Source: a virus
Length of the DNA: 39,915 nt
Virus record (IMG/VR): IMGVR_UViG_3300023442_000006
Span: 1-39,915 of that record
Reading direction: 5' to 3' (one strand)
In this document: one piece after another, positions 2,794 to 36,831 of the stretch
Layout: each line of letters opens with the position of its first letter
Position numbering within the stretch: position 1 is the stretch's first letter
Position numbers and translations under genes: made by a program
Notes under the pieces: generated by a model
Seen by the model: only the letters and a program-made list of their open reading frames with translations
What the model was told of the DNA's origin: nothing
Databases searched by the model: none

Positions 2794-2803
2794 ACGGCGA
2801 ACC

Positions 2804-4651: not shown

Positions 4652-4655
4652 TTGC

Positions 4656-5969: not shown

Positions 5970-5987
5970 CCCTCGAGATCCAAGCTA

Positions 5988-7842: not shown

Positions 7843-8031
7843 CTACATGGTACGGACCGACTGGATCAGCCCGAGAACGGCCTCCAGGGCCGTTGGAAGA
7901 AGAAGGAGAAAGATCACCTTCAGCCACACACCATGCTTGATGGCCTGCTCGACCAGTCCGGGATGACCATTCCCGAAGACCGTCTTTTCCATTCTACGAA
8001 GTCGCATTTCAAGGTTCTCCTGGTTCGTCAT
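7843..8031 (-). CDS. Holin-like small membrane protein, 62 aa
   Basis: A charged helical N-terminus (MTNQENLEMRLRRMEKTVFG) leads through NGHPGLVEQAIKHG to one transmembrane helix (KVIFLLLLPTALEAVLGLI). This resembles small phage holin or haemolysin-XhlA-like proteins, which have a short coiled coil before a single span. The frame is open to 8049. I prefer ATG 8031 because it overlaps the giant gene's TGA (8028-8030) as ATGA and has AGGAG upstream. Lysis function is inferred; no endolysin gene is recognised nearby. Confidence 0.6.
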   Translation of the reverse strand: MTNQENLEMRLRRMEKTVFGNGHPGLVEQAIKHGVWLKVIFLLLLPTALEAVLGLIQSVRTM

Positions 8032-18681: not shown

Positions 18682-18950
18682 GGCTGTCTCCTGAGCAGGT
18701 TGTTCACGGAATGCTGGACGGCCTGCCCGATCCCGTCCGCATCATACTCGGAAGCTGGCACCCACAGGGCACCAACGGCCTTTCTGAAGGCAAGGTTGAC
18801 CGCTTCCAGGTCTCCTGCCGCCACAACGGGGGGAAGGAGGGGGTGAGAATGATCCTGGCGGTACCGAGAAAGGGCGGACCCGACGAGGCTGATGGCATCT
18901 TCCTCGGCGTCTTCCAGGTTCATCCGGTCGAATCTATCGTCCAGGGCCAC
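18678..18950 (-). CDS. Hypothetical protein, 90 aa
   Basis: The gene lies between the tail nozzle-like gene and the internal virion genes. The start is a GTG with GAGAGGAG two bases before it, overlapping the end of the 1895-aa gene by 17 bases. The product is acidic at the N-terminus (MNLEDAEEDAISLVGSALSR) and probably helical, ending VQHSVNNLLRRQP. No family or motif is recognised. By position it may be a minor virion protein or a chaperone for one. Confidence 0.5.
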   Translation of the reverse strand: MALDDRFDRMNLEDAEEDAISLVGSALSRYRQDHSHPLLPPVVAAGDLEAVNLAFRKAVGALWVPASEYDADGIGQAVQHSVNNLLRRQP

Positions 18951-21900
18951 TTCTCCTCTCTCCTACGGTGTAATCGTACAAGAAGAACGGGTGTCGGCAA
19001 GAGAACTCCAACTGGAGGAACTTCCCCCGCGGGGCACTGGGCTGATAGTCCTTACCGCCGAAGAGGGAGACCTGGGCCCACCCCTTGTCCATTGGAACAT
19101 CGGCCACTTTGAAGGCGGTGGACTGATCGAAGTCCACCCATGCCGTCACCGTCATCAAGCCCTGGTTCCGCGGCTCGAACGACAAGTAGAGCCAGCCCCA
19201 CTTCTTCATCTCATCCTGATTGCCATAGGGAATGGCCCCAGTCCTCCAGAAGCGCCGGAAGGCTCCAATGGCCCAAATGTCCCCTGACACTGGGACGAAG
19301 GACAAGGGAGTGTTGAGAGTGAAGGAAGACCCGGTGTTGGAAATGATGATAGCGGAGGACTCCTGCCCCGTTGCCGCCTGGATTACCGTCAAGGTTTCCC
19401 CACGGTGCCCCTCCTGAACCGTGGCAACGTCCGTCTCCTGGACATTGACCAGGGCGGTTCCGCTCCCGGCCCCGACCTTCCCATTGACGGACCCATAACC
19501 AGGACGGGGACCGTCCAGCTCTTGACCAGCAGAATCCAGGATGTAGACCATTCCAAGGTGATCGGCTCCCCACAACTCCCTCTTGTTGTTGAAGTCTTCC
19601 GCAATCCCAAGGGTGGCGATATTGGGGCCGTCCGAGGTCGTGAAGACATGGGGGGGGTTGTTCTTGAACTCTCCTGCGACGCCGGTAGTGAGATCCAGGG
19701 CGATTCTGGTCCTGGCTCGCGGATCGGATTTCCGTTTGGCGACCCAAATGACTTGATCTCGGTCCCTCCAGTAGACACCGGACATGAGGCCGAGCCTGGC
19801 GGGGTCGATGCTTCCCCAGGTTCCGTTCGGCTCCTTGATGGGTCCACCGAGGAAGGTATCGGAGACGCCGTTGAAGGCGTAGATACCCTGTTCAGCGGGC
19901 CGGAAAAGCCTCCGCTGGGCGGAGACCACCCCGATCGGACTGACGCAACCTGCGTCCGTTTCTACCACGCTCACGGAGAAGCCTACGGAAGCCGGAGAAG
20001 CCACGAAAATAGCGTCCCGAAGGAAGAACACCCGTTGGCCGAAGATCGTCGCAATCGCCACGACAGCGCCCCCTTCCTTCGAGTCCAGGGGGATCAAGTT
20101 CGTGGCGGGCATGGATTCCGGAGCAAAGGGTTCGGAATAGAGAACGCCAGCCCCCCCCTCCTCCTTGCGGACCTCCATCTTCCCCACGAAGATCCTGGAC
20201 TCATCGGCTCCGATGGCCGTGAACCGGGGCGGGAAGGAGTTCTGGAACGAAAGGACCGCCTTGGTCGTTAGAACCTCGTCCCTGATGTTGATGACGGCAG
20301 AGCGGGAGAGATTGTCCTGGACCTCCAAGGCAAGGTGATAGGTCGATCCATCTGCGGCGGTCTTGTAGATCCGTCGGTAGATCTTCTCCCTGGTATCCTC
20401 ACTCACCGGCAAGGAAGAGAGGGTGAAACTCCCGTCTACGATCAGGTCCGACTGTCCAGGCGCGATCAGTTCCTTGACCGATTCTGGACCAGGGTTGGAC
20501 TCCACGAAGGTATCCGGGTCGTAGAAGGTGACTCGGAAACGATGCTTCCCAGCAATCGTAGGGATGCTCTGAACGCTCTCCAAAGACCCGGTAAGGGGGT
20601 TGGCGGTATTGAAGTCTTCGGGGCTGGTTCCTTCCCCCTCGTTGAGACGGAAGACATAGGCTGCGGTCTGATAACGACCGGCCGAGTAGAAGTTCGTCGA
20701 TGCCCCGTTGTTCCACCTGGAAGTTCCCAAGGGTTCCTTGAAGTCCGCAGTAGAGCTTCCTGGGTCACGCGGAAAGTTGACTGTCGGGGCAGTCGTCATG
20801 GGCGGGGTGTGCGGATGGTTCACGTCCCGGTCCGTATCGGTCACTTGTCGAACACTATGGATCAGCCCCTCGAACCCGAAGAACGACTTGTCCGCGACCG
20901 TGATTCCAGAGTTTCCCCACAGAACATCGCCCCCCGTATCGTCTGGATTGTCGTCGCTCGAGGGGTGGTCTGCGCTATAGACCAGGGCATTGCCGGCGGC
21001 TCCTCCTTCCTGCCAGATATTGAGTGCCCCACCGGGGGAAGAAGCCATCACCACATAGTCATATCGGCTCCCTGAGGCCCTTCCGAAAACCGTACTCACG
21101 AGGAGATAGAACCAGGTGGAAGTGCTGTTGATGGGGTAATTGTCGGTCTCAAACCAACGCTCTGCTTTGGCATTGAGATCCCACCACCCGAAACGGACCT
21201 TCAGGGCGTTTCCGTCGCTGTTGGGAATGAGGACGATCCAGTAGTTTCCGCTGTTCTTCGTCCAGTTCTTGCCCATGAAGGTCATTTTCCGGTCCAGCCT
21301 GGAGGGCTTGAACCATGCCTCGAAAGCGCCGGCGTCCCCTCTTGCTCCAGAGGTCGTTCCACTATCCCCGTCCTTGGTGTTCCCTGACAAGTCCAGTCCG
21401 TAGGTGGAGACGTAACCGATCCGAAGCTGTTGCTGTCCCTTGAAAACCGCGGAGAAGTTTACTTCTGGATCATCTTGGTCGTGGGTTCCGGTAACGAACG
21501 CAGGGGCGTCCGTACTCCACAACGAGGTCGTGACGGCTTCCACGTCGGACTTGTATCCAGGGGGGACGATCCCCATTCTCCTGGAGGTCTTCCCGTCATA
21601 GACGACAGGAGGTCCGTTTCCGGTACACAGGTAGAGCCGTTCATTGAAGAGAACTCCACTTGGGGGCCGCTCATCGTCTGGGACTCCGATACCGGTCATT
21701 ACCGGAACGAAGGGGAACGACTCCACCTTCCCGTTCTGGCTCTCTCCAAGTGATCCCTGGTTGAACGCGATGGCATCTTCCCCATCGTTGAAGGGGAAGA
21801 GAACCTTGGTCTCTGTTGATGCCGATACGCGAGAGGATGGAGAGAGATAGTCCGCGGTGTGGAAGGCGGACGTGGAGGATGCGTTCGACACGATCTCGAA

Positions 21901-24621
21901 GTCTGCCATTTGTCCACTGAACGGTTCATAGTCGTTGCGGTGGATCTCGGCCACATTCCCGATCAGTATGTCATCCGTGACGGAAGGAATTGCGGATCCT
22001 CCTCCCCCGATAGGTGTACTGGTGGTTGCCTCCTTGACGCCATCAATGAAGAGGGCGAAAGAGGGGCTTGCGGTGAACTCGATATAGTGCCACCGATCCT
22101 TCTCCAGTGGGGCGTTCACGGTGGAGTAGAGGGTTCCGTTTCCGGTCTTGGCGAAACTGACCTTCAATCGGCCAGCTTCGGTGTAGACCATATAGGCCAC
22201 ATCTCCGGGAGAAGTCCAGCTTCCCAGGAACGCGAGTACCCGTTTTCCGCTTGTCTTGTCGAACTTGAACCATCCCCGGATTGCGAAATACTGTGTGGCA
22301 CTCGATCCCTCGCGGAGGGAGGAATCGAAGGGGATCGACACGAAGTCATCATCGTCCAGGAAGGCCAGGCATCCCTTATCTCCTTCGTAGGGAGAATCGG
22401 GTCTCCAACGAGGGTCGATCCGGTACCCATTGGAGTGGTGGATCAGGATTTGTGAGGTTCCGAGAGAAGGGGTCTCGAACTTGATGATGGAGCGACCAGG
22501 GTTGTCCTGGTCGTCTGGCTCGAGGCCGTCCACCCAAACCGGAAGGGTAAGCCCAGGAGCGGTATTGTCTTCGTAAGGATCCAGGCAGTAATAGAGGGGA
22601 GTCTTGGCAGGCCCCCGGTCGTCCAGGATCTTGATTGCCCCGATCTGGCTTCCGTTCGTAGTCTCTACCAGGTCTCCCTCGGCGTCCGGCATCGGCTTCG
22701 GGGCAATGTCTTCCCAAAGTCGAATCTCTGCCGTGTCTTCGACTACCTGTCTTGATGTCGGAGAATCGAAGTACCAGCATCCACCAAGCCTCGTCCCGAG
22801 AAGCCCCTTCCCGCTCACGGTCTTCCCTTCATAGGCAGAAGAGAGGGTGATGGTCGTCCCTACGATGTTGGAAATATGGTGGATCTTGGGAGTAGTCAGG
22901 ACTTCCCCGTTGTCTTCGTTGGGAGCATCTACGGAATCTCCGGTCAGGAGATAGGCGTTGATGAATCCTGTATCGGGAGACTCATTCGCAATAACGGTTG
23001 TGCTTCCTTCCGTGAAATCCCCGAAGGCAGCGCCCATGTTCTCAATTAGCTGATCCTTCGAGAGCGTCTTCTCCCATCGTTCTGAGACTCCAGAGGCGTC
23101 CAGGAAGGAGATCCACAAACGGACTTCCTCTACCAGTAGGGGGACTGGCTTCTGCCCGGACACGTTGTTGTAGCTGCTCCAGGGGGTCTGCTCGTCAGTC
23201 GAGTAGTTTGCGCTTGATCCGATTCGGAGTTGCTTGGGAATATCGGCATGCGGCCCTGTAGTGGGAACGGGAGACGAAGCGGAAGCCTCAAGGTTTCCGT
23301 CGATATAGAAGTCCATGACCGGAGTCGTGTCCAGGTCAAGGAAGGTCTCCCACATTTTTACCTTCCCTGGTTCAATGGACAAGGAAGAGGTCAAGGTTCT
23401 GGATGCTCCTTGCCAGTAGTAGGAGGATACGGGGTTCCCTGAAGCGTTGTATCCGAAGGATAGGGCCGGTCGGTCTCTTTTGTCTCCGCCAGACAGTTCA
23501 GCCCACCGGCACCCTGCCGCTCCTGCTCCTGAATAGGAGAGGTCCAGGATTGCTGCGCGAACACTGATCCCGAATCGGATTTTCGGTGAAGCTGCGGTGG
23601 TGTCGAAGTTGAAGGAATCGAACTCGTTCCGAAAGAGGTCAGCCCATCTCAGGTCTGCCTGGAGGAACGAAGTATGACCATCCAGGAAGACTGCTCCATC
23701 TGCGGCCCGTTTCCCGTTGGTGACGACAATCGCCCCAGGTCCCATGTAGCCATGATTTCCCCAACGGCTATGGTCCTTGACGATCCGTCCAGCCCCATCG
23801 TCCATCCGCCACCACCCTTCCAGTTGCTCTTCGTACTGATGACCAACAGGATCGAGCATTCTCCCCGTGAACTTGGCAACGTCGGAATCGTTCGCATTGA
23901 GGACGGCGGACCAGACACGAAAATCGGAGATCTTGAAGTGAAGTGCCTTGTCGTCGGTCTGTGACCCTTCTCCGCCGATATAGATCGGCGCGTTCAGTGC
24001 GTTGAGGAATCGCTTGGTCCCTACGGTGTTGTCGATGGTGGAATGGAAAACATTGTCCACATAGAGGTCGAACTCGTCCGGTGATCCGAAGCGGAAAACG
24101 ATGCGAATCTGGCTCGTTGTTCTCTTGAAGAACTTTCTGGACCAAGTTTTCGAGAGAAGAGATCCGGTTGTGTCTTCTTGCCAAACGAACTGGAGGTAAT
24201 AGTCCCCTCCGTTCTCGAGGATGTTCAACCCCCACGAAATATCACCAGAAGTGTAGGGTGCCCCGTGGACAAGGATGCTTCTGGCAAATCCTGTCGGCGG
24301 GAAGTCGATGATTCTGAGATTGAACTCGACGGTGAAATCCGTCGAATTGTTCACGAGGTCATAATATCTGGTTTGGGCAGGGATCAGGAGATAGGCCCCT
24401 TTCCCGTTCCTGTAGTTGTTCTTTCCGAACTCGAGGGCGCCAGTGCGAGGGCCGGAGAGAGTGACTTTCTTCGCTCCGAGTCCACCCTCCACGGCCCCGT
24501 TGTTCAATTCGATCCTGCTCATGGCAGCCGCCTGACCGGGACCGATCAGGCGTTGCGCAACACCATCCTGAAGGCCGCCCGTAAGCGGGAATACGCGCCC
24601 TTCAGACTCGTTCCTGGGCAT
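18934..24621 (-). CDS. Large tail protein: LamG-like domains fused to a nozzle-like beta-propeller, 1895 aa
   Basis: At least four segments have the look of LamG/concanavalin-like jelly rolls: about 70-240 (FTVEFNLRI...FDLYVDNV...FKISDFRVW), 320-500 (FYIDGNLEA), 765-900 (IRGWFKFDK...HYIEFTASPSFALFIDG) and 1090-1290 (AFEAWFKPSRL). Segments like these bind glycans or proteins. From about 1350 the sequence changes to FRVTFYDPDTFVESNPGPES, then repeated blades (VVAIATIFGQRVFFLRDAIF, RRLFRPAEQGIYAFNG, YWRDRDQVIWVAKRK). This is reminiscent of the beta-propeller tail nozzle (T7 gp12 type). It lies downstream of the connector genes, where a nozzle is expected. The fusion would put adhesion domains on the tail tip. 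Domain borders are estimates. Confidence 0.7.
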   Translation of the reverse strand: MPRNESEGRVFPLTGGLQDGVAQRLIGPGQAAAMSRIELNNGAVEGGLGAKKVTLSGPRTGALEFGKNNYRNGKGAYLLIPAQTRYYDLVNNSTDFTVEFNLRIIDFPPTGFARSILVHGAPYTSGDISWGLNILENGGDYYLQFVWQEDTTGSLLSKTWSRKFFKRTTSQIRIVFRFGSPDEFDLYVDNVFHSTIDNTVGTKRFLNALNAPIYIGGEGSQTDDKALHFKISDFRVWSAVLNANDSDVAKFTGRMLDPVGHQYEEQLEGWWRMDDGAGRIVKDHSRWGNHGYMGPGAIVVTNGKRAADGAVFLDGHTSFLQADLRWADLFRNEFDSFNFDTTAASPKIRFGISVRAAILDLSYSGAGAAGCRWAELSGGDKRDRPALSFGYNASGNPVSSYYWQGASRTLTSSLSIEPGKVKMWETFLDLDTTPVMDFYIDGNLEASASSPVPTTGPHADIPKQLRIGSSANYSTDEQTPWSSYNNVSGQKPVPLLVEEVRLWISFLDASGVSERWEKTLSKDQLIENMGAAFGDFTEGSTTVIANESPDTGFINAYLLTGDSVDAPNEDNGEVLTTPKIHHISNIVGTTITLSSAYEGKTVSGKGLLGTRLGGCWYFDSPTSRQVVEDTAEIRLWEDIAPKPMPDAEGDLVETTNGSQIGAIKILDDRGPAKTPLYYCLDPYEDNTAPGLTLPVWVDGLEPDDQDNPGRSIIKFETPSLGTSQILIHHSNGYRIDPRWRPDSPYEGDKGCLAFLDDDDFVSIPFDSSLREGSSATQYFAIRGWFKFDKTSGKRVLAFLGSWTSPGDVAYMVYTEAGRLKVSFAKTGNGTLYSTVNAPLEKDRWHYIEFTASPSFALFIDGVKEATTSTPIGGGGSAIPSVTDDILIGNVAEIHRNDYEPFSGQMADFEIVSNASSTSAFHTADYLSPSSRVSASTETKVLFPFNDGEDAIAFNQGSLGESQNGKVESFPFVPVMTGIGVPDDERPPSGVLFNERLYLCTGNGPPVVYDGKTSRRMGIVPPGYKSDVEAVTTSLWSTDAPAFVTGTHDQDDPEVNFSAVFKGQQQLRIGYVSTYGLDLSGNTKDGDSGTTSGARGDAGAFEAWFKPSRLDRKMTFMGKNWTKNSGNYWIVLIPNSDGNALKVRFGWWDLNAKAERWFETDNYPINSTSTWFYLLVSTVFGRASGSRYDYVVMASSPGGALNIWQEGGAAGNALVYSADHPSSDDNPDDTGGDVLWGNSGITVADKSFFGFEGLIHSVRQVTDTDRDVNHPHTPPMTTAPTVNFPRDPGSSTADFKEPLGTSRWNNGASTNFYSAGRYQTAAYVFRLNEGEGTSPEDFNTANPLTGSLESVQSIPTIAGKHRFRVTFYDPDTFVESNPGPESVKELIAPGQSDLIVDGSFTLSSLPVSEDTREKIYRRIYKTAADGSTYHLALEVQDNLSRSAVINIRDEVLTTKAVLSFQNSFPPRFTAIGADESRIFVGKMEVRKEEGGAGVLYSEPFAPESMPATNLIPLDSKEGGAVVAIATIFGQRVFFLRDAIFVASPASVGFSVSVVETDAGCVSPIGVVSAQRRLFRPAEQGIYAFNGVSDTFLGGPIKEPNGTWGSIDPARLGLMSGVYWRDRDQVIWVAKRKSDPRARTRIALDLTTGVAGEFKNNPPHVFTTSDGPNIATLGIAEDFNNKRELWGADHLGMVYILDSAGQELDGPRPGYGSVNGKVGAGSGTALVNVQETDVATVQEGHRGETLTVIQAATGQESSAIIISNTGSSFTLNTPLSFVPVSGDIWAIGAFRRFWRTGAIPYGNQDEMKKWGWLYLSFEPRNQGLMTVTAWVDFDQSTAFKVADVPMDKGWAQVSLFGGKDYQPSAPRGKFLQLEFSCRHPFFLYDYTVGERRSGPGR

Positions 24622-27180: not shown

Positions 27181-28509
27181 TTAGTTGAACTGATCCACGC
27201 GGTAGGGCTCCTGGAGTCCTCGGATCACGCCGTGGAGGTTTCTCCGCGGGGTGCCCATGTTCGAGAAGAAGAGCAGGGTCGCTTCCCAGCCCATCTTGTT
27301 GGGGATTCGCGAGAACATGTTGTCGCGATCCATCCAGTAGAACCCGCCCTGGTTGTAGCAGTAGATCTCGGGCATCGTGAGCATGAACCAGTGACCGGGC
27401 AAGCAATCCTTGTCCACCATGATCGGGCGACCGGCGAAGGTCAAGGCGGTGTAACCACCAGCCAGAACGGTGGTGTTGGGGAACCGCTTCTCGGGAGAAA
27501 GAACGGTGGTGCCGTAGTAGTTCTCCAGAGCGTAGGTGGTCCAGTGAGCCAGCCCCTGATTCGCGGCCTGGCCGCCACGACGGCGGATCAGGCTTTGAAG
27601 CTGGTGGAGCATGGTATCGGTGAGGGGCACCGGTGCGGCGCTGTTGTCGATGACGGTTGCGGCCCACCGTTCGTTACCTGCGACCGAGGGGTCGATGTTG
27701 GCAACGGTTCCGGTGTCGTCCACCCACTTCAGAAGTCCCTCGACTTCGTTGTTGTAGGCGTCGTCGTCGGCAGTGGCGATCCCCGATTCCCCGGCCTTGA
27801 CCAGAACGTCGGTAGCGATGGTGCCTCCAGGTGCGGCGTTCAGGGTGATCTTGTTGGGGGTCGTGGAGTAATCCACCGCGGTGACGGTGGCAGTACCACG
27901 AAACGCCCCTGGGGCGGAGTAAACCGCGAGAACGTCCCCTTCTTCGATGAACTTCGCCCCGTCGGGGTCCGACCCTCCGGGCCAACACGCTTGGCCGCCA
28001 GGCTGTTCGACCGAAAGGATGTTTCCGGCGACGATCGTGATCCGACACAATATCCCGGAGCCGTCTCCAGAGATATGTTGTCGGTTCAGGTCGTTTGCCA
28101 TGTCCATCGTCAGGCCCTTCATTTCGACTTCCAGGCCGCTCTCGAAGGCGCCCTCCGAGGTTGCGGAAGCCTGAATGGCGGGTTCAGTGATGGCGAATCG
28201 GCCCGTGTTGAAGAAGATGCTGATTTGACCGGCAATCCGGTTGGATCCGTCGGTTGCGGTCTGCTGGAACGCCGGGGGCGGCAGCTCGTAGAGTTCGCTA
28301 CGGGCACCCACCGCATTCCGGTTTCCCTTGAGGAATACGGGGATGACCCCATACTTTCCTCGGATTTCCTTCGACGACCGGCGAATCCGGCCAAAGAATT
28401 CCGCTTCACGGTTGATCTGATCGGTCAGTCCGTGAATCGTGTAGTCCTCTTTCAAGTATCCAGCCAGAGCCGCGAGATTGGCGGCAAGGCTCAGGTTGGC
28501 AGCAGCCAT
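27181..28509 (-). CDS. Major capsid protein (HK97-fold type), 442 aa
   Basis: The N-terminus has the Ala/Leu-rich helix (MAAANLSLAANLAALAGYLK) followed by an E-loop-like region (FFGRIRRSSKEIRGKYGVIP). Later segments have the P-domain look (LHWTTY-like ALENYYGTTVL, GGYTALTFAGRPIMVDKDCL, FYWMDRDNMFSRIPN). A centre-of-protein insertion (about 175-235) with DGAKFIEEGDVLAVYSAPGA is beta-rich. Size, position after a scaffold-like gene and a strong downstream hairpin support the call. A weak TAGGT ribosome site precedes the ATG, ten bases after the scaffold stop. Confidence 0.8.
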   Translation of the reverse strand: MAAANLSLAANLAALAGYLKEDYTIHGLTDQINREAEFFGRIRRSSKEIRGKYGVIPVFLKGNRNAVGARSELYELPPPAFQQTATDGSNRIAGQISIFFNTGRFAITEPAIQASATSEGAFESGLEVEMKGLTMDMANDLNRQHISGDGSGILCRITIVAGNILSVEQPGGQACWPGGSDPDGAKFIEEGDVLAVYSAPGAFRGTATVTAVDYSTTPNKITLNAAPGGTIATDVLVKAGESGIATADDDAYNNEVEGLLKWVDDTGTVANIDPSVAGNERWAATVIDNSAAPVPLTDTMLHQLQSLIRRRGGQAANQGLAHWTTYALENYYGTTVLSPEKRFPNTTVLAGGYTALTFAGRPIMVDKDCLPGHWFMLTMPEIYCYNQGGFYWMDRDNMFSRIPNKMGWEATLLFFSNMGTPRRNLHGVIRGLQEPYRVDQFN

Positions 28510-28519
28510 GATTGGTTAC

Positions 28520-29605
28520 CTACTGGTTTTCTCCTCTCTGGAGTTTTTCCCTGGCGGACAGCAATGCTTGTCTGATCCCGTTTCTGAACATACCCGAGTC
28601 GAAGAATCCGCCTTTTGCCTGGGAAGGCGGGGGCGGGGCGGGCCGAGGGACGACGACGCCAGGACCAGGTTCCGGGGGAACACCGGGCCGATTCTGTGCT
28701 TCTTGGTATCGTTCGGTCAGGGATGCTCGACGCATTTTCTCAAAGTGGTTGGCCCACTTCGTGACCGCCTTTTCGTGAGTGACCCCTTCGTTTTCGTACC
28801 GCCTCACGTCGATGAGAGCGAGTTCGGCAATCGCTTTCTTGGTTTCCTCGTCAGCGGCCTTCGCAAACGGATGGCTGTTGATCGCATTCTCCAAGCGTTG
28901 ATTGACCTGATCCAGCATCATTCTGTCGGCTCGTTCTTGTTCCAATCGTTGAATCTCCTGGAGAGACATCGAGAGTTCGTTGACCTTGTTCTTGAGTTCA
29001 ACGACTTCTCTTGATTCTCCGGGTTCTCCGAAAAGATCATCGCCCAACCCCAGGTCGTCACCGCCGGGGGTCTCCGACGGTCGATTGCTGGGAGTCGAAG
29101 GGCCTTCGACATGCTGTCCTTGGATGATCGCAGTGACCTTTTGAGCCTCAGCGGGATGGGATCGACTCCATTCCAGGAAAGACTCGAAGGACTGCGCCTT
29201 CTCTTGAAGTTCCTTGTTCTCCAGGTAGGTCCGCTGGATCTCTTCTGGAGACATTTCCACCTCGTACCCGCTCGGCAACTTGACTTTCAGGACATTGGGC
29301 TGTTCGCCGCCTTGTCCTTCTGTCGGCGGAGGAGTGGGAACAGGTTGATTTTCTTGTGAGATGGGATTCCCAAACTGGTCCAGGTCGGGATACTTGACGA
29401 CCGGGGCGGGGGACTGGCTGGGAGTGGGGGCAGGAGGAAGATTGGGGCTCTGAACGAATCGCTGCGAGGCGTTCTGAATAGCGTTCTGGTTCGTCATTTG
29501 CTCCTGCGGGGTTTGGAATCCCTGCGTCTGGTCTCCGAAGAACGCCTCATAGTAGCTCGGGGCAGGGCCTTCCGAAGCAGGCAGATCGTAGTCTTGTCTC
29601 GTCAT
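28520..29605 (-). CDS. Scaffold protein, 361 aa
   Basis: This is an acidic, Pro/Gln-rich, mostly disordered protein with a central coiled coil (REVVELKNKVNELSMSLQEI, RLEQERADRMMLDQVNQRLE) and a short basic C-terminal helix (RNGIRQALLSAREKLQRGEN). These are hallmarks of phage scaffolds, whose C-terminus contacts the capsid protein. It lies directly before the major capsid gene and after the portal block. Its start shares one base with the upstream stop (TGATG). Confidence 0.75.
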   Translation of the reverse strand: MTRQDYDLPASEGPAPSYYEAFFGDQTQGFQTPQEQMTNQNAIQNASQRFVQSPNLPPAPTPSQSPAPVVKYPDLDQFGNPISQENQPVPTPPPTEGQGGEQPNVLKVKLPSGYEVEMSPEEIQRTYLENKELQEKAQSFESFLEWSRSHPAEAQKVTAIIQGQHVEGPSTPSNRPSETPGGDDLGLGDDLFGEPGESREVVELKNKVNELSMSLQEIQRLEQERADRMMLDQVNQRLENAINSHPFAKAADEETKKAIAELALIDVRRYENEGVTHEKAVTKWANHFEKMRRASLTERYQEAQNRPGVPPEPGPGVVVPRPAPPPPSQAKGGFFDSGMFRNGIRQALLSAREKLQRGENQ

Positions 29606-30144
29606 CAGTCAATCTCCACAAGGGCGCGTCCCAGGACGGCGTATCCACCGGTTCGGAGCGGAAGCTCTTTTTCGCACCGGGGGCACCGCGGCTTTTCCTT
29701 GGACCTGTTTTCGAGTTCCTCTTTCTTCATCGTCGGTGGCCCAACGAACTTTGAGGGCCATCTCCAGAACGGCATTTGGGTTCCGGCAGGATCGACAGGC
29801 GTTCGGGGGTCGAATCCGCGTTCGAACTCGACGGCAATCCGACCGCAACGAACGCAGCGAATCCCAAACTTCGGCCCTTTTCCCTGATCTCTTTCCTTGT
29901 CCAGTTGTCCGAGTCTCTTCTTCATCATTTCGATGGCGGTTGCCTTACGAAACCCGGAAACGTCGATATTCAGGTGTTGGAGGGCCAGGCGGTCAAGCTC
30001 TTGCCGGTTGAAGTTGCCCTTGATGGACTCAACGCTCCAGCGAGCGATGTCCTTGAGGGCCTTGGTATCTCCAGAGACCTTGACGTGGCTCTTGTCGTCC
30101 TCGTCGATGAGTTCAGGTTCTTTGAGTTCTTCGGGATCGCTCAT
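29605..30144 (-). CDS. Zinc-ribbon protein with SAP-like helical segment, 179 aa
   Basis: The acidic N-terminus is followed by a helix-turn-helix-like stretch (NRQELDRLALQHLNIDVSGF, then KATAIEMMKKRL) that looks like a SAP/HeH DNA-binding motif. Two CxxC pairs follow, C97/C100 (CVRCGR) and C154/C157 (CPRCEK), which form a zinc ribbon. It lies between portal and scaffold, an unusual place for a DNA-binding protein. It may link DNA to the portal or act in packaging. That role is inferred. Confidence 0.65.
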   Translation of the reverse strand: MSDPEELKEPELIDEDDKSHVKVSGDTKALKDIARWSVESIKGNFNRQELDRLALQHLNIDVSGFRKATAIEMMKKRLGQLDKERDQGKGPKFGIRCVRCGRIAVEFERGFDPRTPVDPAGTQMPFWRWPSKFVGPPTMKKEELENRSKEKPRCPRCEKELPLRTGGYAVLGRALVEID

Positions 30145-32288
30145 TGAGTGACGGCCTCCTGCCGCGCTTGTTCTTTCTCTTTCCCTTCATCGTCTCCCTT
30201 CTGTCCCCCTCCAGCCTGGTTGGTGAAAGCATTTTCCAGGGCGACGGCAGCGATGAGGGCTTCGTTCTGTCCTTGTGCGTACCTTTGAATCCGTAGGATG
30301 GTTTCCGGTGGCAGACTCATGTAGTAGGCGGTCTTCTGGAACTGTCTCACCACCTGAAGGATGGTCTGGTGGTCGTCGATTCCAGGTCGAACGGGGACAT
30401 CATATCCAGGGATTCCTCGTTCTGGATCTCCGATCATGGTTTCGAGGGCGTATTCTGCCCATCGCACATCAAGCTCGAAGATTTCCTTCACCTTGCTGTC
30501 GTCCCCGATCTCCATCGTCTCGAGGATTGCGGCTCTCAACATCGGCGGGAAGGTCATCAGGTTCGGCCCGTACTGAAGGAACTCACCGGCAAAGGCTTGC
30601 TTGGCTGCTGTGGACTTCGGCATCATTTCTGCGGCATCCACGACCACCTTGGCGTCTTCTGCGAGGTCTTCCCCGGAGATCCATCCAGACCATACCAGCT
30701 CGGTTCTGGCAAGCTCTTGAACCATCATGGGGCTCGTCCACGTTCTCTTGATGAGTTGATGAACGTGGCTCCAAAGCACCTGATACGATTCTGCGTGGGA
30801 TTCGATGATTGGCTGATAGAAGTCCAGGTCTCTTTCTCGGAGAAGACCGATGGAGTATCCAGCACGGACGCCGGAAGGGTTCTGTCCCTGCATCGCCTCA
30901 TGTTGAGCGGAGAGGTCTCGCAAGGACTGAAGGTGGAGTTCGTGAGTTCCGAAGAGTCCATTCGGGATATTCGGGAAGGGTTGCCAGGTAGGCACTCCCT
31001 TCTCGGGATCATATTCGTAAACGTCTGCGGAAACGTTCGTGAAGGCGGTCTTGGCGATTGCGGATCCTCTTGGAGAGAGGAGTTTCGGCTTGAGTACGGA
31101 CTTGCGAATATCGGTCAGTTGCCCCTCATTGCTGTTGAGAAGTCTCTGCGGGGAGATCATGTTCTCGACCAGGGACATGGGCCAGAAGGATCCGGGTCGT
31201 TCGATGAAATCGAACTTGACGAGATCGCACCCGTTCAGCCCGAAGGTATAGGAGGGGGAGTCTCCGCTTTCGAGTAGGATTCCGCCGGCTACGACGGCGT
31301 ACACGCCTCGAGGATGTTCTGTTGAAGGAGGTTCGACGTAGGTCTTGAGGATTGCGCTCTTGTCATCGTCGTAGGCCATGACACCTGCGAACCCTTCGTA
31401 TCCAGCTTCAGCAGCCCCACCGGCCATCGAAAGGATCCTGGCCTCGAAGCTGTTCCGTTCCCAAGCGGAGAAGGTTTCCGCGGGGACATAAACTCCCATC
31501 TTGGGCCACCGCTGCCGGATCCAGTTGAGGGATCTTCGTTGAGCGATTAGGTACCACTGAAGGTCGTCGGTGTCCTCTGCGGTGTCAGGGACATAGACCT
31601 CGAAGGGCGAATGGACGGAAATATCCACTTCGCCGCGTCGGACCTTCTTGGAAAGGCCGGCTTTCCGTAGAGACTCCTTGGTCTGTTCGGAGATGGATTC
31701 CGGGGGGATGGTCTCTCCAGATTGGGGGTCGATGAAGAATTCTTCTTCTGGTCCTGCGTTGGGGTTCCAGTAGGGTCGTAGGAACCCGCACCCGGTAATA
31801 GCTGCCCACCGAGCCATTTTCCTGATCTTTCTGGCCCATCGCTTGGTTCGGTAGAGATGCCGGATTGCCCTATCCCCGGCCCTTGCTTCAGCCTTGCTCT
31901 TGTAGTCGCTGTTCTTTGGGCGGACGGTGAAGTCGATTTTCCCGGTGAGGATCTTCACTGCCCGCTGAACGGCGGGCATGATCTTGTTGTCGGTTACGCG
32001 GGTGAGGTTTCGATTGACCGGGATCTGTCCGATCCGGTGTCTTCGGTAGTCCCAATAAATGTGCTGGAACCCGTTGTAATAGGCGAGGTCGAGGAACGCC
32101 CTCCGCATGACGTGATACTTGAGCCCGAAGAGGAGTTCGTTGTTGGCCCTGGTTTCGATTCTGGATAGGAGGAGTCGTTCTTGTTCGGAGAGGTTCTGAT
32201 CGAAGATGGCGGATCTTGACCGTTGCGCTGCGTTGGAGTCGTAACTTTCCAGCAGCCCGAAGCTCGACTGATCTCCTGTGTTGACCAT
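30141..32288 (-). CDS. Portal protein, 715 aa
   Basis: Size and position (after the terminase nuclease, before scaffold and capsid) match podovirus portals. Recognisable features are the N-terminal helices and wing (YYNGFQHIYWDYRRHRIGQI), VNRNLTRVTDNKIMPAVQRA, and later MSLVENMISPQRLLNSNEGQ, plus an acidic stretch and long C-terminal helices. The C-terminus is low complexity (QAGGGQKGDDEGKEKEQARQ). The portal forms the dodecameric ring through which DNA is packaged. ATGA coupling joins it to the next gene. Confidence 0.85.
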   Translation of the reverse strand: MVNTGDQSSFGLLESYDSNAAQRSRSAIFDQNLSEQERLLLSRIETRANNELLFGLKYHVMRRAFLDLAYYNGFQHIYWDYRRHRIGQIPVNRNLTRVTDNKIMPAVQRAVKILTGKIDFTVRPKNSDYKSKAEARAGDRAIRHLYRTKRWARKIRKMARWAAITGCGFLRPYWNPNAGPEEEFFIDPQSGETIPPESISEQTKESLRKAGLSKKVRRGEVDISVHSPFEVYVPDTAEDTDDLQWYLIAQRRSLNWIRQRWPKMGVYVPAETFSAWERNSFEARILSMAGGAAEAGYEGFAGVMAYDDDKSAILKTYVEPPSTEHPRGVYAVVAGGILLESGDSPSYTFGLNGCDLVKFDFIERPGSFWPMSLVENMISPQRLLNSNEGQLTDIRKSVLKPKLLSPRGSAIAKTAFTNVSADVYEYDPEKGVPTWQPFPNIPNGLFGTHELHLQSLRDLSAQHEAMQGQNPSGVRAGYSIGLLRERDLDFYQPIIESHAESYQVLWSHVHQLIKRTWTSPMMVQELARTELVWSGWISGEDLAEDAKVVVDAAEMMPKSTAAKQAFAGEFLQYGPNLMTFPPMLRAAILETMEIGDDSKVKEIFELDVRWAEYALETMIGDPERGIPGYDVPVRPGIDDHQTILQVVRQFQKTAYYMSLPPETILRIQRYAQGQNEALIAAVALENAFTNQAGGGQKGDDEGKEKEQARQEAVTQ

Positions 32289-32289
32289 T

Positions 32290-32547
32290 TCAGTTGATGA
32301 TCATTCCGCCGTCTGGGACGTAGTTTGGGTCATAGACGCCGGAAAGCTCATCGGGCGGTCCGACTCCCCTTTCGCGCCCGTCCGAATCACTCTCCGGCTT
32401 ATGGTTGCGAAGTTCAGAAACTTTCTTCGCAAGGATGAGTTTCATGGCGGTTTCCGACTGTTTTCGCGCTTGGACTGCGGTAAATGCCATGACCAGCGAC
32501 TGAAGGACCGCCATGACTGCGACGATGATGAGGGGGAGTTCTGTCAT
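32290..32547 (-). CDS. Small membrane-anchored protein, 85 aa
   Basis: An N-terminal transmembrane helix (LPLIIVAVMAVLQSLVMAFT) is followed by a helix (KQSETAMKLILAKKVSELRN) and a hydrophilic acidic tail ending GGMIIN. It is unusual to find a membrane protein between the terminase nuclease and portal genes. Its ATG overlaps the nuclease stop as ATGA, and its TGA lies one base before the portal ATG. A holin or superinfection-exclusion role is possible, but nothing shows it. Confidence 0.6.
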   Translation of the reverse strand: MTELPLIIVAVMAVLQSLVMAFTAVQARKQSETAMKLILAKKVSELRNHKPESDSDGRERGVGPPDELSGVYDPNYVPDGGMIIN

Positions 32548-33338
32548 TGGTACAGCGAGAATACCGAATCAGGTACTTCCTCCCAAGGGTCTTTTGGTCT
32601 TCCAACTTCGTTGGTTCTCTGGATGATCTTCCTCCAGGTCTCCGCTCTCCTGGCTTTCTTCCTATCAGGAGGAGGGATTTCCTTCGGATCCTTTCCTGTG
32701 AACCGAATTCCGAAGGTTTCCCTTGCGGCGTAGAAGGCGAAGGCGGCAGCCATGAGAACGTCGTCGTGGGCACCCTCGTTCGTCTTCGGTCTTCCTCGAT
32801 CATCCAGCACCCAAGTAAGCCCCTCGTTACAGAAGAGGCTGTCGTGGATTGGGGTTACCTGGGTGACGGCAGCGCGAAGGATATCGACCAGCATGGCCTT
32901 CGACCCGCCGCCCATCGTTGCGGAAGAGGTCGTGATGCCGTACTCATACCTGGGTTTGCTGGCGACTTTCCGTTTGTCTGGTGCGTATCTCTGCTGGAAG
33001 ATGTTGGAGTATTCGAAGTCGTGGAGGAGTCGTTTGATGACGACTAGGCCGTGGTTGTTCTTCTCAGGGGCGAGGAGTGCGTTGTTGTAGTACTGCCCGA
33101 GGACGGCCATTTCTTCAGCGAAGGGCCACGGGTCGATGCGTCCATGCCAGGTAGCAACATGCTCCATGGTTCTACCGTTGATGACGAATCCAACGGAGAA
33201 GTCTCCTCCGCCCCTGGATCCTTCGGTGACCTTTCCTTCAGCCACGTCGATTCCGATGACATAGAGTTCATGCGGTTCAGGCCCTTTCCAGATCCTCAGA
33301 TCCCCTCTCGGATCGGGCTCGAACTTGAATCTACTCAT
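32544..33338 (-). CDS. Terminase large subunit, nuclease half (separate ORF)
   Basis: This is the RNase H-like headful nuclease domain of the large terminase. It has D31 in VIGIDVAEGK, E92 in APEKNNHG and D192/D193 in GAHDDVLMAAAFAF, the three metal-binding acidic positions of terminase nucleases. It starts MSRFKFEPDPRGDLRIWKGP, which is the linker that normally follows the ATPase domain. There is no Walker motif. Together with the 34282-35052 gene it makes one complete large terminase in two polypeptides. It overlaps the end of the small-terminase gene by 8 bases. Confidence 0.85.
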   Translation of the reverse strand: MSRFKFEPDPRGDLRIWKGPEPHELYVIGIDVAEGKVTEGSRGGGDFSVGFVINGRTMEHVATWHGRIDPWPFAEEMAVLGQYYNNALLAPEKNNHGLVVIKRLLHDFEYSNIFQQRYAPDKRKVASKPRYEYGITTSSATMGGGSKAMLVDILRAAVTQVTPIHDSLFCNEGLTWVLDDRGRPKTNEGAHDDVLMAAAFAFYAARETFGIRFTGKDPKEIPPPDRKKARRAETWRKIIQRTNEVGRPKDPWEEVPDSVFSLYQ

Positions 33339-33831
33339 CGACTTCCCTGATCTTCGCCTTTCCGGCGATCAAGCGAACGGCTTCGGTCTTCGTACAACGT
33401 GCCCGCTTCATCAGGAACATGAGGAGATCATGTTCGGAGGGGTCGTTCTTGCCGGCGTTCTTCCGTCCTTGCTGGGAGAACAGAGGATCGAATCGTTCGC
33501 AGAACATCTTCATGTGAGGAGCGGACCCATCGAGGGCCTTCTCCAGCATGGTGGAATAGACGTTCTGGAGTTGAGACCGAAGGAATCGGTTTCGATTCTT
33601 GGCGATCCAGTCCTGGAATGCTGGATCCTGAAGCCAGTCGAAGATCGTCTCGAAGGGAACGTCGATGGCCTTGCTGATGGTCCGCAGTGATTGCGGCTTC
33701 TCCTGTGTGGAGACATATCGGAGGTAACGGTAGTGTCCCTCCTTCGGTCGGAATCCGAGTTCCCCGATGGTGACATCCTGAGGGAAAAGGATTTCCTTCA
33801 TGTTCATGCTCTTGGGGTCATTCAGGGCCAT
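33331..33831 (-). CDS. Terminase small subunit candidate, 166 aa
   Basis: Residues about 48-69 (SLRTISKAIDVPFETIFDWL) form a helix-turn-helix, followed by DPAFQDWIAKNRNRF and a helical region with EKALDGSAPHMKMFCERFDP. This is the usual arrangement of TerS/phBC6A51-like small terminase proteins, which recognise phage DNA and stimulate the ATPase. It lies between the ATPase and nuclease halves of the large terminase. The start is inside the end of the zinc-finger gene (14-base overlap). Confidence 0.7.
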   Translation of the reverse strand: MALNDPKSMNMKEILFPQDVTIGELGFRPKEGHYRYLRYVSTQEKPQSLRTISKAIDVPFETIFDWLQDPAFQDWIAKNRNRFLRSQLQNVYSTMLEKALDGSAPHMKMFCERFDPLFSQQGRKNAGKNDPSEHDLLMFLMKRARCTKTEAVRLIAGKAKIREVDE

Positions 33832-34048
33832 AGATGGTTCTTTCCTCCCGGATCATCTGTTTCATCTGATTGATGAGGCCTTCCGTGAAGAAGACTTCGC
33901 CGTCTTGCGCGATGGCGGACTTCATCTGACAGTCTGGACATTCGATGGGGCCACCATCGAAGGTTCTGCTGATGGAGAAGAAGTTCCTCCCGCAGAACCA
34001 GCATTCTGCTTTCCTCAGCCAGAGTCGTGCCCCGGCGTCGTAGTCCAT
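33818..34048 (-). CDS. Zinc-finger protein, 76 aa
   Basis: Two CxxC pairs (C16/C19 in ECWFCGR, C37/C40 in ECPDCQ) form a zinc ribbon, followed by a helix (FFTEGLINQMKQMIREERTI). The frame is open to 34165, but ATG 34048 lies one base after the upstream stop. The protein could bind DNA or mediate protein contacts in packaging, given its position between the terminase halves. No family is recognised. Confidence 0.6.
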   Translation of the reverse strand: MDYDAGARLWLRKAECWFCGRNFFSISRTFDGGPIECPDCQMKSAIAQDGEVFFTEGLINQMKQMIREERTIYGPE

Positions 34049-34049
34049 T

Positions 34050-34268
34050 TCAGCCCTTCTTGGGCGTCCCGTCCATCTTCTGGATCGGGGCTCCGGCCAC
34101 GCCGGAGGTAGAGATCGGGGCACTGGGTGCGCTTCCGGGGTTCGCCGCGGGATTGACGCCGCCAACCCACCGGACGTTTCCGTGCGCTCCTCCAGTTCCG
34201 GCGATGCTCTGCGTCTCGAAGCACTTGTTCGGTCCGTTCTCGCCTTGATTCCCGTCCTTCAACATCAT
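34050..34268 (-). CDS. Hypothetical Gly/Ala/Pro-rich protein, 72 aa
   Basis: The first two codons are ATG ATG, preceded by AGGAGGGGGCAGAGG, a clear ribosome site that overlaps the stop of the ATPase gene. The product (MMLKDGNQGENGPNKCFETQ, then GGAHGNVRWVGGVNPAANPG) is low-complexity, with no recognisable fold. It is the first of three genes between the two halves of the large terminase. It may encode a small structural or disordered protein. Confidence 0.45.
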   Translation of the reverse strand: MMLKDGNQGENGPNKCFETQSIAGTGGAHGNVRWVGGVNPAANPGSAPSAPISTSGVAGAPIQKMDGTPKKG

Positions 34269-34281
34269 CCTCTGCCCCCTC

Positions 34282-35052
34282 CTAGAGGCTGGTTTTCAGT
34301 AGCCTACCGCGGAAGCGTGGTCGGCAAACATGACTTTTCTGGATTTTCTGAAGGGATGGGATGTTCAACACCGGTCTTCCCAGCATCAAACGGAACTCTC
34401 CCTTCACTCTGACCGCGACTTCCGCGTCGTCACGGTACAAGGAAGCTGCCTTCTTGATCTCTTCCCTGGGCAGGTACTTGTTGTCCGTCATAGACATGGT
34501 GACGATCTCGAAATCCGGGTCGTCCGTGCGGTAAACCCTCTGATAGAGCCAAGCAGAGCCATTTACGGGAGTGAGAGTCCCCCACACCTGCCCGGCATGG
34601 TCGATACAACGAGTCCAGGTCTCCTTGAAGACATCGAAAGGCGGCTCCTCATCGAACCAAGCCCCGTCCAGGTCTTCCCCCTGGAACTTCTTCCGCTTGC
34701 TGTCACAGCTCTTGAGCCAACAACGACTCCCCGTTGGCAAATATGTGAACACCGCCTTCCCCCCGTTGTAGACCCAGTCCCGATGCTCCTGGCCCAGGTA
34801 CTTCATCATCTTCTCCTTGAGGATCACCGCAAGCGGGAAGTCCAGAGCCACCGCCCAATACTTGCCCTTGTCAGGAAACACCCGGCCAAAGAGCGGGTCA
34901 TAACCGATCAGACGACTCGCCATCTTCCACGAACCACACTCCGTCTTCCCAGAACGGTTCGCTCCAATCGCCCAAGGGCTCTTCCGATCACTCGCCAGAA
35001 ACCGCTCCTGCCACTTCAAAGGCCGAAAGTCCAGGAACGCGCTCGACTCCAT
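34282..35052 (-). CDS. Terminase large subunit, ATPase half (separate ORF)
   Basis: This is the packaging-motor ATPase: Walker A GANRSGKTE (residues 30-38), Walker B LDGAWFDEE (128-136, D134 with E135 catalytic) and the coupling motif GTLTP (158-162). It ends after KGEFRLMLGRP and a short basic tail, at 256 aa. Whole large terminases are 400-600 aa and carry a C-terminal nuclease; here that domain is a separate gene at 32544-33338. The ATG lies 13 bases after GGAGG, about 95 bases downstream of a sigma70-like promoter. Confidence 0.9.
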   Translation of the reverse strand: MESSAFLDFRPLKWQERFLASDRKSPWAIGANRSGKTECGSWKMASRLIGYDPLFGRVFPDKGKYWAVALDFPLAVILKEKMMKYLGQEHRDWVYNGGKAVFTYLPTGSRCWLKSCDSKRKKFQGEDLDGAWFDEEPPFDVFKETWTRCIDHAGQVWGTLTPVNGSAWLYQRVYRTDDPDFEIVTMSMTDNKYLPREEIKKAASLYRDDAEVAVRVKGEFRLMLGRPVLNIPSLQKIQKSHVCRPRFRGRLLKTSL

Positions 35053-35154
35053 GAGAACTCAGAGACCTCCACAGAGAAACGGGCGACGCCAGGCTCGCTC
35101 TCCAGCGCCGCCCTCTCGATTCCTCTTCCCCGTTCCCGGTTCGGACATGAACAC

Positions 35155-35184
35155 AGAATAGAACCTTCCCACCACCACCGTCAA
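35155..35184 (-). promoter_or_regulatory. Sigma70-like promoter nearest the terminase
   Basis: On the minus strand, TTGACG (35179-35184), an 18-base spacer and TATTCT (35155-35160). Transcription would begin near 35148, giving a leader of about 95 bases before the ATPase ATG. The TTGACGG core is shared with the promoter at 6951-6979. Confidence 0.5.
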
Positions 35185-35402
35185 CCACAACTTCCCACCA
35201 GAAGCACAGAAACATGCCTAGAAGACACGATCAGATTCAACCTGACCCAAACCACTCCTAGACCAAGAAATCCCCTACAAGACAGCGAAATCAAGCCTCA
35301 GAGATAAACAAGAGAAATACCAAGACCCAACTCAACCAGACCTGATATACCCCACAACATCTACGATTATCCATATATCCATACCTGACTAAAAAGAGAA
35401 TA

Positions 35403-35438
35403 CCCCCCTTTCCCCCCCCACACCCCCCCTATACCCCC
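35403..35438 (-). other. Potential G-quadruplex (four G-runs on the minus strand)
   Basis: The plus strand has C-runs of 6, 8, 7 and 5 (35403-35408, 35412-35419, 35423-35429, 35434-35438), so the minus strand reads four G-runs separated by loops of 3-4 bases. This exceeds the usual G4 rule (four runs of at least three G, loops 1-7). It lies in the likely leader of the packaging mRNA and in an otherwise AT-rich island. Confidence 0.6.
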
Positions 35439-35481
35439 TAAGAGAAAATTCAGAATTGAAGGGTGTAGACTAAATCATGTC

Positions 35482-35502
35482 TCAATAAGACCTCCTTATT
35501 GA
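35482..35502. repeat. Perfect 8-bp inverted repeat with 5-base spacer
   Basis: TCAATAAG and CTTATTGA (35482-35489 and 35495-35502) flank ACCTC. It could be an operator for a dimeric regulator or an RNA hairpin whose loop on the minus strand (GAGGT) resembles a ribosome site. It lies eight bases from the first of the three spaced repeats. Confidence 0.55.
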
Positions 35503-35509
35503 TATGTTG

Positions 35510-35656
35510 TAGGTGAATTTTAGACCTCTTATAGACGTATCTCCTTACTACATAATGCCTATATAGAAAATCATATAGGTGAATCCTAGCAATTACTCTA
35601 CTCATACCCACTACACTTTCAAACTCTAAGTACCGTTATAGGTGAAGTTTTAGACC
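35510..35656. repeat. Three iteron-like repeats spaced 66 and 63 bp
   Basis: TAGGTGAA occurs at 35510, 35576 and 35639. Copies 1 and 3 continue as TAGGTGAATTTTAGACC and TAGGTGAAGTTTTAGACC; copy 2 continues with TCCTAG. The spacing of 63-66 bp is close to six helical turns, so the copies would lie on the same DNA face. On the minus strand each contains TTCACCTA(T/C)A, which gives a -10-like box. Confidence 0.6.
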
Positions 35657-35734
35657 AGTTTAGTAGAAACTCACAAATCCGTGGTATTCTAAACCCCCTA
35701 ATAGAAAGGAAATATATAAAACTTTAAAAGGTCC

Positions 35735-35763
35735 GGGAACTTTTGGGACTTTTTGGGAAACTT
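35735..35763. repeat. Three short tandem copies of a GGGA(A)CTTTT-like motif
   Basis: The plus strand reads GGGAACTTTT, GGGACTTTTT and GGGAAACTT in direct succession. The cores resemble the GGAACTT -35 element of many ECF sigma promoters, but they point away from the late genes, so that reading is weak. Confidence 0.4.
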
Positions 35764-35776
35764 ACACTAAATCCAA

Positions 35777-35805
35777 CTCATACACACACAATATCACCAT
35801 GTCAA
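35777..35805 (-). promoter_or_regulatory. Sigma70-like promoter at the upstream end of the island
   Basis: On the minus strand, a perfect TTGACA (35800-35805), a 17-base spacer and TATGAG (35777-35782). Transcription would start near 35770 and run through the repeats and G-runs to the terminase, a leader of about 700 bases. Confidence 0.5.
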
Positions 35806-35856
35806 ATTCCAATAAATCAACGTTCTAAAAAGAAATCTCCTAAACTCTCTATGTAT

Positions 35857-36342
35857 TTATACCACTTCAAGAACTTGTAAATCAACACAGCGCCGGATAT
35901 CTCCATATGAACTCCAATTCCATACCCTCAAGAGATGACGGTAGGGACTCCAAGAGGGAGACGCCCGCCCGCGCGGAACCGCACCCCCCCCCTCGCGTTT
36001 TCTTGCGGGTGGCGGCCGGGTCAACCGCTCCAGCGCATCCTCGTGACGGGCCTGCTCCGGGGCCTGCTCCGCCTGCTCCCGCGCCTGCTCCGGGGCGGGT
36101 CCGGGCCCTCGCCTCCAGGTCGCCGCCTGCTCCTGCTCCTGCCGGCGAGCCTGCTCCGGGGACGGGCCCGGGCCGGGTGACGGGCCGCGACTGCTACGCC
36201 TCCGGGCCCGGGTCTCCGGGTCTCCGGGTGACGGGTCTCCGGGTGACGGGTCTCCGGGTGACGGGGGACGGGCCGACCAGTCCTCGATGCTGGGGCTCCA
36301 GGCCGGGCCGCCCGAGCTCCAGCGGAGGGCCCCCGTAGGCAT
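35857..36342 (-). CDS. Low-complexity ORF of doubtful coding status, 161 aa
   Basis: The frame reads Pro/Gly/Asp repeats (three SPGDP units), then Glu/Gln/Ala-rich sequence (PEQAREQAEQAPEQA) and an Arg/Pro-rich region. It ends in AT-rich DNA. High G/C at codon third positions is compatible with coding, and the 15-bp repeats keep the frame. Against this, no ribosome site precedes ATG 36342, a strong hairpin lies just upstream, and the opposite strand is also open. It may be a disordered protein or a non-coding GC-rich spacer. Confidence 0.25.
   Translation of the reverse strand: MPTGALRWSSGGPAWSPSIEDWSARPPSPGDPSPGDPSPGDPETRARRRSSRGPSPGPGPSPEQARRQEQEQAATWRRGPGPAPEQAREQAEQAPEQARHEDALERLTRPPPARKREGGGAVPRGRASPSWSPYRHLLRVWNWSSYGDIRRCVDLQVLEVV
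36221..36265. repeat. Perfect 15-bp tandem triplication
   Basis: Three identical, adjacent copies of TCTCCGGGTGACGGG (36221-36235, 36236-36250, 36251-36265), with a partial copy (TCTCCGGG) at 36213-36220. A 15-bp unit keeps the frame and would encode SPGDP repeats on the minus strand. It is a likely site of slippage variation. Confidence 0.85.
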
Positions 36343-36396: not shown

Positions 36397-36831
36397 TCAG
36401 CCGGACACACCCAGAGCAGCGCGGAGCTTGCTAATGGCGCGGTGTCGGCGGACGCGGACGCGTGAGGGATCGCCGGTCCGAGGATGGAAGACTGCGGCGA
36501 TCTCAGCGGGTGAGAGGATGTCGGCGGCTATCTGCCGGATTTCCCGGACGCGATCGGCGGCCTCCTGCCGTCGGCACCGGACATCCTCGATGTCGGCTTG
36601 ATGCTGGACGGCCTCTGGGTAGCGGCGGACCGCCACGACATGGCGGCGGTGCCGGTCAGCGCAAATCCGCCGAGCGACAACCGCCACCCAGGCGCGAGGC
36701 CGGGAGGGCGGCGAGGGCCGGTCGAGGAGCCTGGAGACGGCTTCGGCGGCCGCGTCCTCGGGGTCCGCCGCGTCAGGGTAGGAGGCGAGGGCGGACCTGG
36801 CCGCGGCGAGGAGAGCGGCGTAATCCATCAT
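36397..36831 (-). CDS. ECF/sigma-70-like RNA polymerase sigma factor, 144 aa
   Basis: The first half resembles sigma region 2 (ALASYPDAADPEDAAAEAVS, RAWVAVVARRICADRHRRH, compare PRAWL..VARN..RDHLRR in ECF factors). The C-terminal part has a region-4 helix-turn-helix pattern (LSPAEIAAVFHPRTGDPSRV, then RRHRAISKLRAAL, compare LSYAEIA...GTVKSRLHRAR..LR). ECF factors have these two regions joined by a short linker. It would redirect host RNA polymerase. The ATG overlaps the upstream TGA, with GGAGGAAGA before it. It lies just upstream of the AT-rich island and late genes. At 144 aa it is shorter than the usual 170-200 aa. Confidence 0.6.
   Translation of the reverse strand: MMDYAALLAAARSALASYPDAADPEDAAAEAVSRLLDRPSPPSRPRAWVAVVARRICADRHRRHVVAVRRYPEAVQHQADIEDVRCRRQEAADRVREIRQIAADILSPAEIAAVFHPRTGDPSRVRVRRHRAISKLRAALGVSG

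Follow-up and report, generated by a model that had tools for sequence, protein, structure and literature searches.

The window, which is the complete IMG/VR virus record of 39,915 bases (a linear contig of uncertain completeness), probably encodes a natural two-gene hybrid large terminase (TerL). One gene specifies an A-type ATPase without a nuclease domain, and another a nuclease of the B lineage, which would cut in trans. Both genes are intact and three others lie between them, as the preliminary description had reported; the frames are open and the layout is repeated in a second genome, L002. Probably, however, the two genes are not a single TerL divided at the linker, as profiles and trees place them in different TerL lineages.

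Late-block layout and its recurrence in L002

The late block lies on the minus strand in the order ATPase, 72-aa protein, 76-aa zinc ribbon, TerS-like protein, nuclease, 85-aa protein, portal, a further conserved protein, a protein in scaffold position and the major capsid protein (Table 1). The two TerL domains are not on one polypeptide but in separate frames with three genes in between, and the same is found in L002. Directly after the portal gene, a second protein with CxxC pairs (zinc-ribbon-like) is conserved in the window (29605-30144, minus strand) and in L002 (6342-6857). Three other minus-strand ORFs of the window were noted. The 1895-aa ORF at 18934-24621 contains a concanavalin A-like lectin (LamG) domain and is probably a tail or host-binding protein, and the 2960-aa ORF at 8028-16910 has no Pfam match and is very large for a 40-kb phage. 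The 144-aa ORF at 36397-36831 gives a sub-threshold match to sigma-70 region 2 (Pfam, 6e-5) and lies in a block with a G+C content of about 0.6-0.76, above that of the late genes.

Table 1. Late-block features of the window and their counterparts in L002
Feature	Window positions	Strand	Basis	L002 positions	Identity, L002 to window
TerL ATPase gene, 256 aa, group A type (LUZ24/P22/Jasmine), opens late block	34282..35052	-	Pfam, group A profile, fold search, L002 homologue	1364-2128	70%
ATPase C-terminal tail, residues 224-256	34282..34383	-	pLDDT, dN/dS, shuffle test		
72-aa protein, function unassigned, conserved motif I[AS]GTG..HG[NS]V[RK]W	34050..34268	-	L002 homologue, E=1e-6	2125-2304	
76-aa zinc-ribbon-like protein (CWFC...CPDC)	33818..34048	-	L002 homologue, E=1e-13	2495-2704	
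TerS-like helix-turn-helix protein, 166 aa	33331..33831	-	PF13022, 7.6e-7; PHROG terminase small subunit, 4.2e-5	2691-3194	
TerL nuclease gene, 264 aa, group B type	32544..33338	-	PHROG, 4.1e-18; group B profile, 159 bits	3187-3966	54%
85-aa protein, nuclease-portal interval	32290..32547	-	ORF only; weak spanin-like PHROG match, not significant		
Small ORF between nuclease and portal of L002					
Portal protein (P22-like)	30141..32288	-	PF16510, 1.2e-13; tblastn relatives Jasmine/Shocker/DS1	4172-6268	about 70%
Protein in scaffold position	28520-29605	-	Position only, without family match		
Major capsid protein	27181..28509	-	PHROG 14242, 1.8e-50; tblastn relatives Jasmine/Shocker/DS1		

The preliminary description had suggested looking for the same split in related genomes, and it was found in L002, a separate IMG/VR record and independent contig. 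Gene order is identical in the two genomes and the three intervening genes are held in common. In both, the start of the nuclease gene overlaps the stop of TerS by 8 bases (ATGAGTAG in the window and GTGAGTAG in L002), pointing to translational coupling and to an independently started nuclease. An extra 54-aa ORF is located between the 72-aa homologue and the zinc ribbon in L002 (2329-2493) and is absent in the window, indicating that the cassette in the gap can change. Between the window and L002, NG86 gives a dN/dS of about 0.23 in the main part of the ATPase, about 0.20 in its tail and about 0.29 in the core of the nuclease, which indicates purifying selection, although the values are approximate as dS is about 1-2. 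Close relatives are very rare: a search of 2.9 million viral contigs, and also of genome contigs, with both halves, their alignments and the portal found only L002 (1 in 2.9 million viral contigs), and the whole case is built on two genomes, one of which is a 7.7-kb fragment.

The ATPase contains the Walker A motif GANRSGKT (residues 30-37), the Walker B motif GAWFDEE (130-136) including the catalytic glutamate and the coupling motif TLTP (159-162), all three of which the preliminary description had assigned to this open frame. The protein passes two Pfam terminase cut-offs (Terminase_6N, PF03237, E=2.4e-9; Terminase_3, E=1.5e-7), and its predicted fold matches the terminase ATPases of D6E, P74-26, Sf6, HK97 and T4, with E values down to 3e-11. 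Motifs, family matches and fold together identify it as an ASCE ATPase of the TerL kind. However, it does not end after KGEFRLMLGRP, as previously described, but is 29 residues longer and terminates in ...RPRFRGRLLKTSL. In the structural model residues 1-223 are well folded, whereas residues 224-256 are poorly folded in isolation (pLDDT < 50); this tail is still conserved in L002, with 62% identity and a dN/dS of about 0.2. Three viral proteins of 195-225 aa in BFVD (A0A514AB09, A0A5Q2W6R2 and A0A8F3EBT8) match the ATPase model over nearly the full length and may be more ATPase-only terminase genes. The minus strand is strongly enriched in G+T at 34400-35860, where the GC skew reaches values of up to +0.58 in non-coding DNA ahead of the ATPase gene and fades across the first part of the gene; the fading part is also seen in L002 (1200-1800). 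Since this gradient begins upstream of the gene and recurs in L002, it looks positional, possibly tied to the start of transcription or replication, and a recent transfer of the ATPase gene, considered from base composition, was rejected.

The residues D31, E92 and D192/D193 of the nuclease, pointed out in the preliminary description, are invariant across 19 aligned nucleases, and the frame is open. Three significant PHROG matches, shared with terminases, were obtained (E=4.1e-18 to 2e-6), and no Pfam match was found for this protein. The region aligns with the nuclease of T4 gp17, of which the catalytic triad is D401/E458/D542 (PMC3012670), and gives a weak PDB profile match to a T4-family gp17 nuclease (9e-4). 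The triad, the PHROG matches and the PDB profile thus predict an RNase H-like nuclease. Among the three genes that separate it from the ATPase, the one adjoining the nuclease encodes a putative TerS, which combines a helix-turn-helix DNA-binding domain with a modest similarity to small terminases (PHROG E value of 2.9e-7 in L002). The zinc-ribbon protein has no Pfam match above the cut-off and is one of the less conserved proteins of the set, with 46% identity to its L002 homologue over only 39 residues. The suggestion in the preliminary description that it bridges the two halves gained no support from these results, which do not speak against it either.

Lineages of the ATPase and the nuclease

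Separate searches with the two halves led to two different sets of phages. The ATPase retrieved Arthrobacter phage Jasmine and its kin together with LUZ24-like and P22-like phages, and the nuclease retrieved phiARM81mr-like, Vibrio and spring-water podoviruses and about 80 IMG/VR contigs. Profiles of full-length TerLs of the two groups, termed A and B, were run on both halves with filters off. The group A profile matched the ATPase with 160 bits and gave no match to the nuclease, whereas the group B profile matched the nuclease with 159 bits and gave no match to the ATPase; the same pattern was obtained with the halves of L002. The pair is therefore neither an A-type TerL of the LUZ24, P22 and Jasmine kind, of which it has the ATPase but not the nuclease, nor a B-type TerL as in phiARM81mr and L013, of which it has the nuclease but not the ATPase. 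In domain trees built on the same 28 taxa, the ATPases of the window and L002 group with A and their nucleases with B, each across a 100/100 branch, and as the branches are long the claim is limited to the A/B split. The independent PHROG assignments give the same picture.

Relatives of the nuclease were also inspected for their upstream domains. All 74 B-type relatives with at least 80 upstream in-frame residues carry a B-type ATPase in the same frame, and further loci agree; the distant relatives with a complete frame are all fused as well. As the two halves themselves were the queries from which reference sets A and B were compiled, a one-piece TerL with an A-type ATPase and a B-type nuclease could exist unseen. 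The earlier account of one TerL cut at its linker without decay thus holds for the natural two-gene state, the intact frames, the position of the cut and the lack of a detectable intron. It is not supported in taking the genes as halves of one TerL, as profiles and trees place them in two lineages and one-piece A-type TerLs are carried by the phages nearest in portal and capsid protein.

Working and history of the two-gene terminase

In TerLs the ATPase domains drive translocation and the nuclease domains cut the DNA at its start and end. In the window, ATPase subunits would dock on the portal and pump DNA, and the nuclease subunit, made beside TerS, would make the initiation and termination cuts. 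The nuclease would be held to the motor non-covalently, perhaps via TerS or because the conserved ATPase tail pairs with the N-terminal strand of the nuclease. In the model of the fused B-type TerL L013 (pLDDT of 72-77 locally in the linker, 46 overall), the homologous cut falls at a turn between two predicted strands (FVGDVV and VFRP), which would allow pairing across chains, although a model of such low confidence gives a hint only. We infer that a two-chain motor is likely. The fuller proposal is that two TerL domains of different lineages, each encoded by its own gene, form the packaging motor as a natural heteromer, and hence a working terminase needing no covalent link between ATPase and nuclease; it stands at about even chances. 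The function of a split motor is not self-evident, as T4 gp17 no longer translocated when it was divided at the linker, although both activities were retained (PMC3012670). The P22 nuclease domain has poor activity when isolated from the ATPase domain (review PMC7617512).

The main mechanistic rival, which is compatible with the hybrid origin, is that the ATPase needs no partner for pumping, like that of phi29, and a TerS-guided free-standing nuclease only cuts concatemers. The nuclease appears to be translationally coupled to TerS and not to the ATPase, the two lineages did not co-evolve, and the phi29 ATPase has only a vestigial nuclease domain (PMC7672431), all of which agree with a free cutter. 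However, the ATPase tail is conserved yet poorly folded alone, which suggests a binding partner, and the nuclease domain of T4 carries a translocation groove (PMC3012670). We therefore regard a free cutter as possible but doubtful.

As to the history of the hybrid terminase, tblastn with the portal and major capsid proteins matched only Jasmine-type phages, Shocker, DS1 and a few spring-water phages, and one-piece A-type TerLs of 504-537 aa are present in Jasmine, Shocker, DS1 and MW202795. The link between portal and TerL type is not perfect, as a B-type TerL is present in ctsm1931, another and weaker match to the portal. The simplest history, and the most likely one, is loss of the nuclease domain from an A-type TerL in the window/L002 lineage and its replacement by a B-type nuclease gene. 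An A-type ancestor (LUZ24, P22, Jasmine type), travelling with the portal and capsid genes, would have given rise to the ATPase gene, and the nuclease domain of a B-type TerL lineage would have become a separate gene, coupled in translation to TerS and cutting in trans.

An unlikely alternative is simple fission, in which the 72-aa, zinc-ribbon and TerS cassette inserted into the linker of one ancestral, already chimeric TerL and so cut it in two, and the chains re-associate as a split protein. The concatenated length of 520 aa is that of a normal TerL, and the window ATPase tail shows a weak likeness, in register, to the group B linker (+4.2 bits, reached in 1 of 500 shuffles); the partly confident L013 model, with the cut at a turn, fits as well. 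However, the L002 tail shows no such signal (68 of 500 shuffles), the L013 model is poor overall, an A-type nuclease is part of a one-piece TerL in the phages nearest in portal, capsid and ATPase, and no fused A-ATPase/B-nuclease TerL occurs among the 74 B-type relatives. Because the likeness of the tail to the B linker is seen in the window but not in L002, some room is left for a route through a fused hybrid that was later cut.

Decay, assembly error or chance is very unlikely and splicing is unlikely, because L002 has the same layout, both halves are under purifying selection and no intron was found. Intron-split terL genes with splicing reads are documented (PMC12363816), but the joining of the halves by RNA splicing, as in the Jug phages, or their reading as one polypeptide by other means is highly improbable here, as no Rfam group I or II intron was matched at the gathering threshold or at E <= 1 in the window, L002 or the gap (the scan covers classified introns), the gap consists of three conserved genes with tight overlaps, and the position of the nuclease start codon is conserved. 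A linear contig of uncertain completeness might hide decay, misassembly or a complete TerL elsewhere in the genome, yet this is equally improbable, as a second independent contig has the identical layout, selection acts on both halves, and portal, capsid, tail and replication genes are present in the record without any further TerL-like frame. A whole TerL elsewhere, named in the preliminary description as evidence against the split, was thus sought and not found within the 39,915 bases.

Relation to known terminases

The nearest ATPase domain, portal and capsid protein found are those of the phages Jasmine (Arthrobacter), Shocker (Microbacterium) and DS1 (Cellulosimicrobium), in which TerL also closely precedes the portal, with small genes in the interval. 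Their TerL is a single polypeptide of 526-537 aa with an A-type nuclease, whereas the nuclease of the window is a separate gene of the other lineage. One-piece B-type TerLs (IMG/VR L012-L090, Aeromonas phage phiARM81mr, Vibrio phage 1.205.O) are homologous to the window nuclease over the whole RNase H core and share the acidic triad, but there the nuclease is fused behind a B-type ATPase with an ARQTGIS-type P-loop, which the window ATPase does not match. The terL frame of the Jug phages is likewise broken by intervening sequence; however, these are group I introns and splicing restores one polypeptide (PMC12363816), whereas the window has an independent start codon, conserved genes in the gap and no intron found.

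Different origins of the two domains have been suggested for one-piece TerLs (PMC10975493; PMC12846349). Similar to the window, the ATPase and nuclease domains of Xanthomonas phage PBR31 TerL are suspected of different origins, but they form one polypeptide, and its authors leave domain transfer or fast nuclease evolution as options (PMC10975493). T4 gp17 split at the linker also has separate ATPase and nuclease chains, but it is a laboratory construct without translocation (PMC3012670), whereas the split in the window is a natural state. The phi29 packaging ATPase likewise has no working nuclease domain, but keeps a vestigial one in its chain (PMC7672431), whereas the window encodes an intact nuclease nearby. 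Intron-split terL genes and chimeric one-piece TerLs are thus already known; a natural unspliced two-gene TerL, hybrid or other, was not found described in a literature search of partial coverage.

PHROG contains half-length TerL families (phrog_31467, 261 aa; phrog_24361, 162 aa; phrog_38407, 370 aa), a hint of known splits. The sole case examined from these families, Salmonella phage 34, was rejected as a natural split, as its P22-type TerL is broken into two overlapping frames, probably by a frameshift. Streptomyces phage Jay2Jay was also rejected, its terminase gene being 606 aa. Annotators of actinobacteriophages have separate labels for terminase ATPase and nuclease domains, which would mean that some split TerLs have been annotated.

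Translocation models differ as to whether the power stroke moves the nuclease domain, as in the T4 model, or this domain is a cutter only. If the two-gene hybrid terminase is real, a covalent link and long co-evolution of the domains would be dispensable for the motor, and the phage would offer a natural test of how the motor works, as well as a system where either chain can be removed or exchanged singly. It would also be a caution for the use of TerL as a phylogenetic marker, which would not always be one gene with one history.
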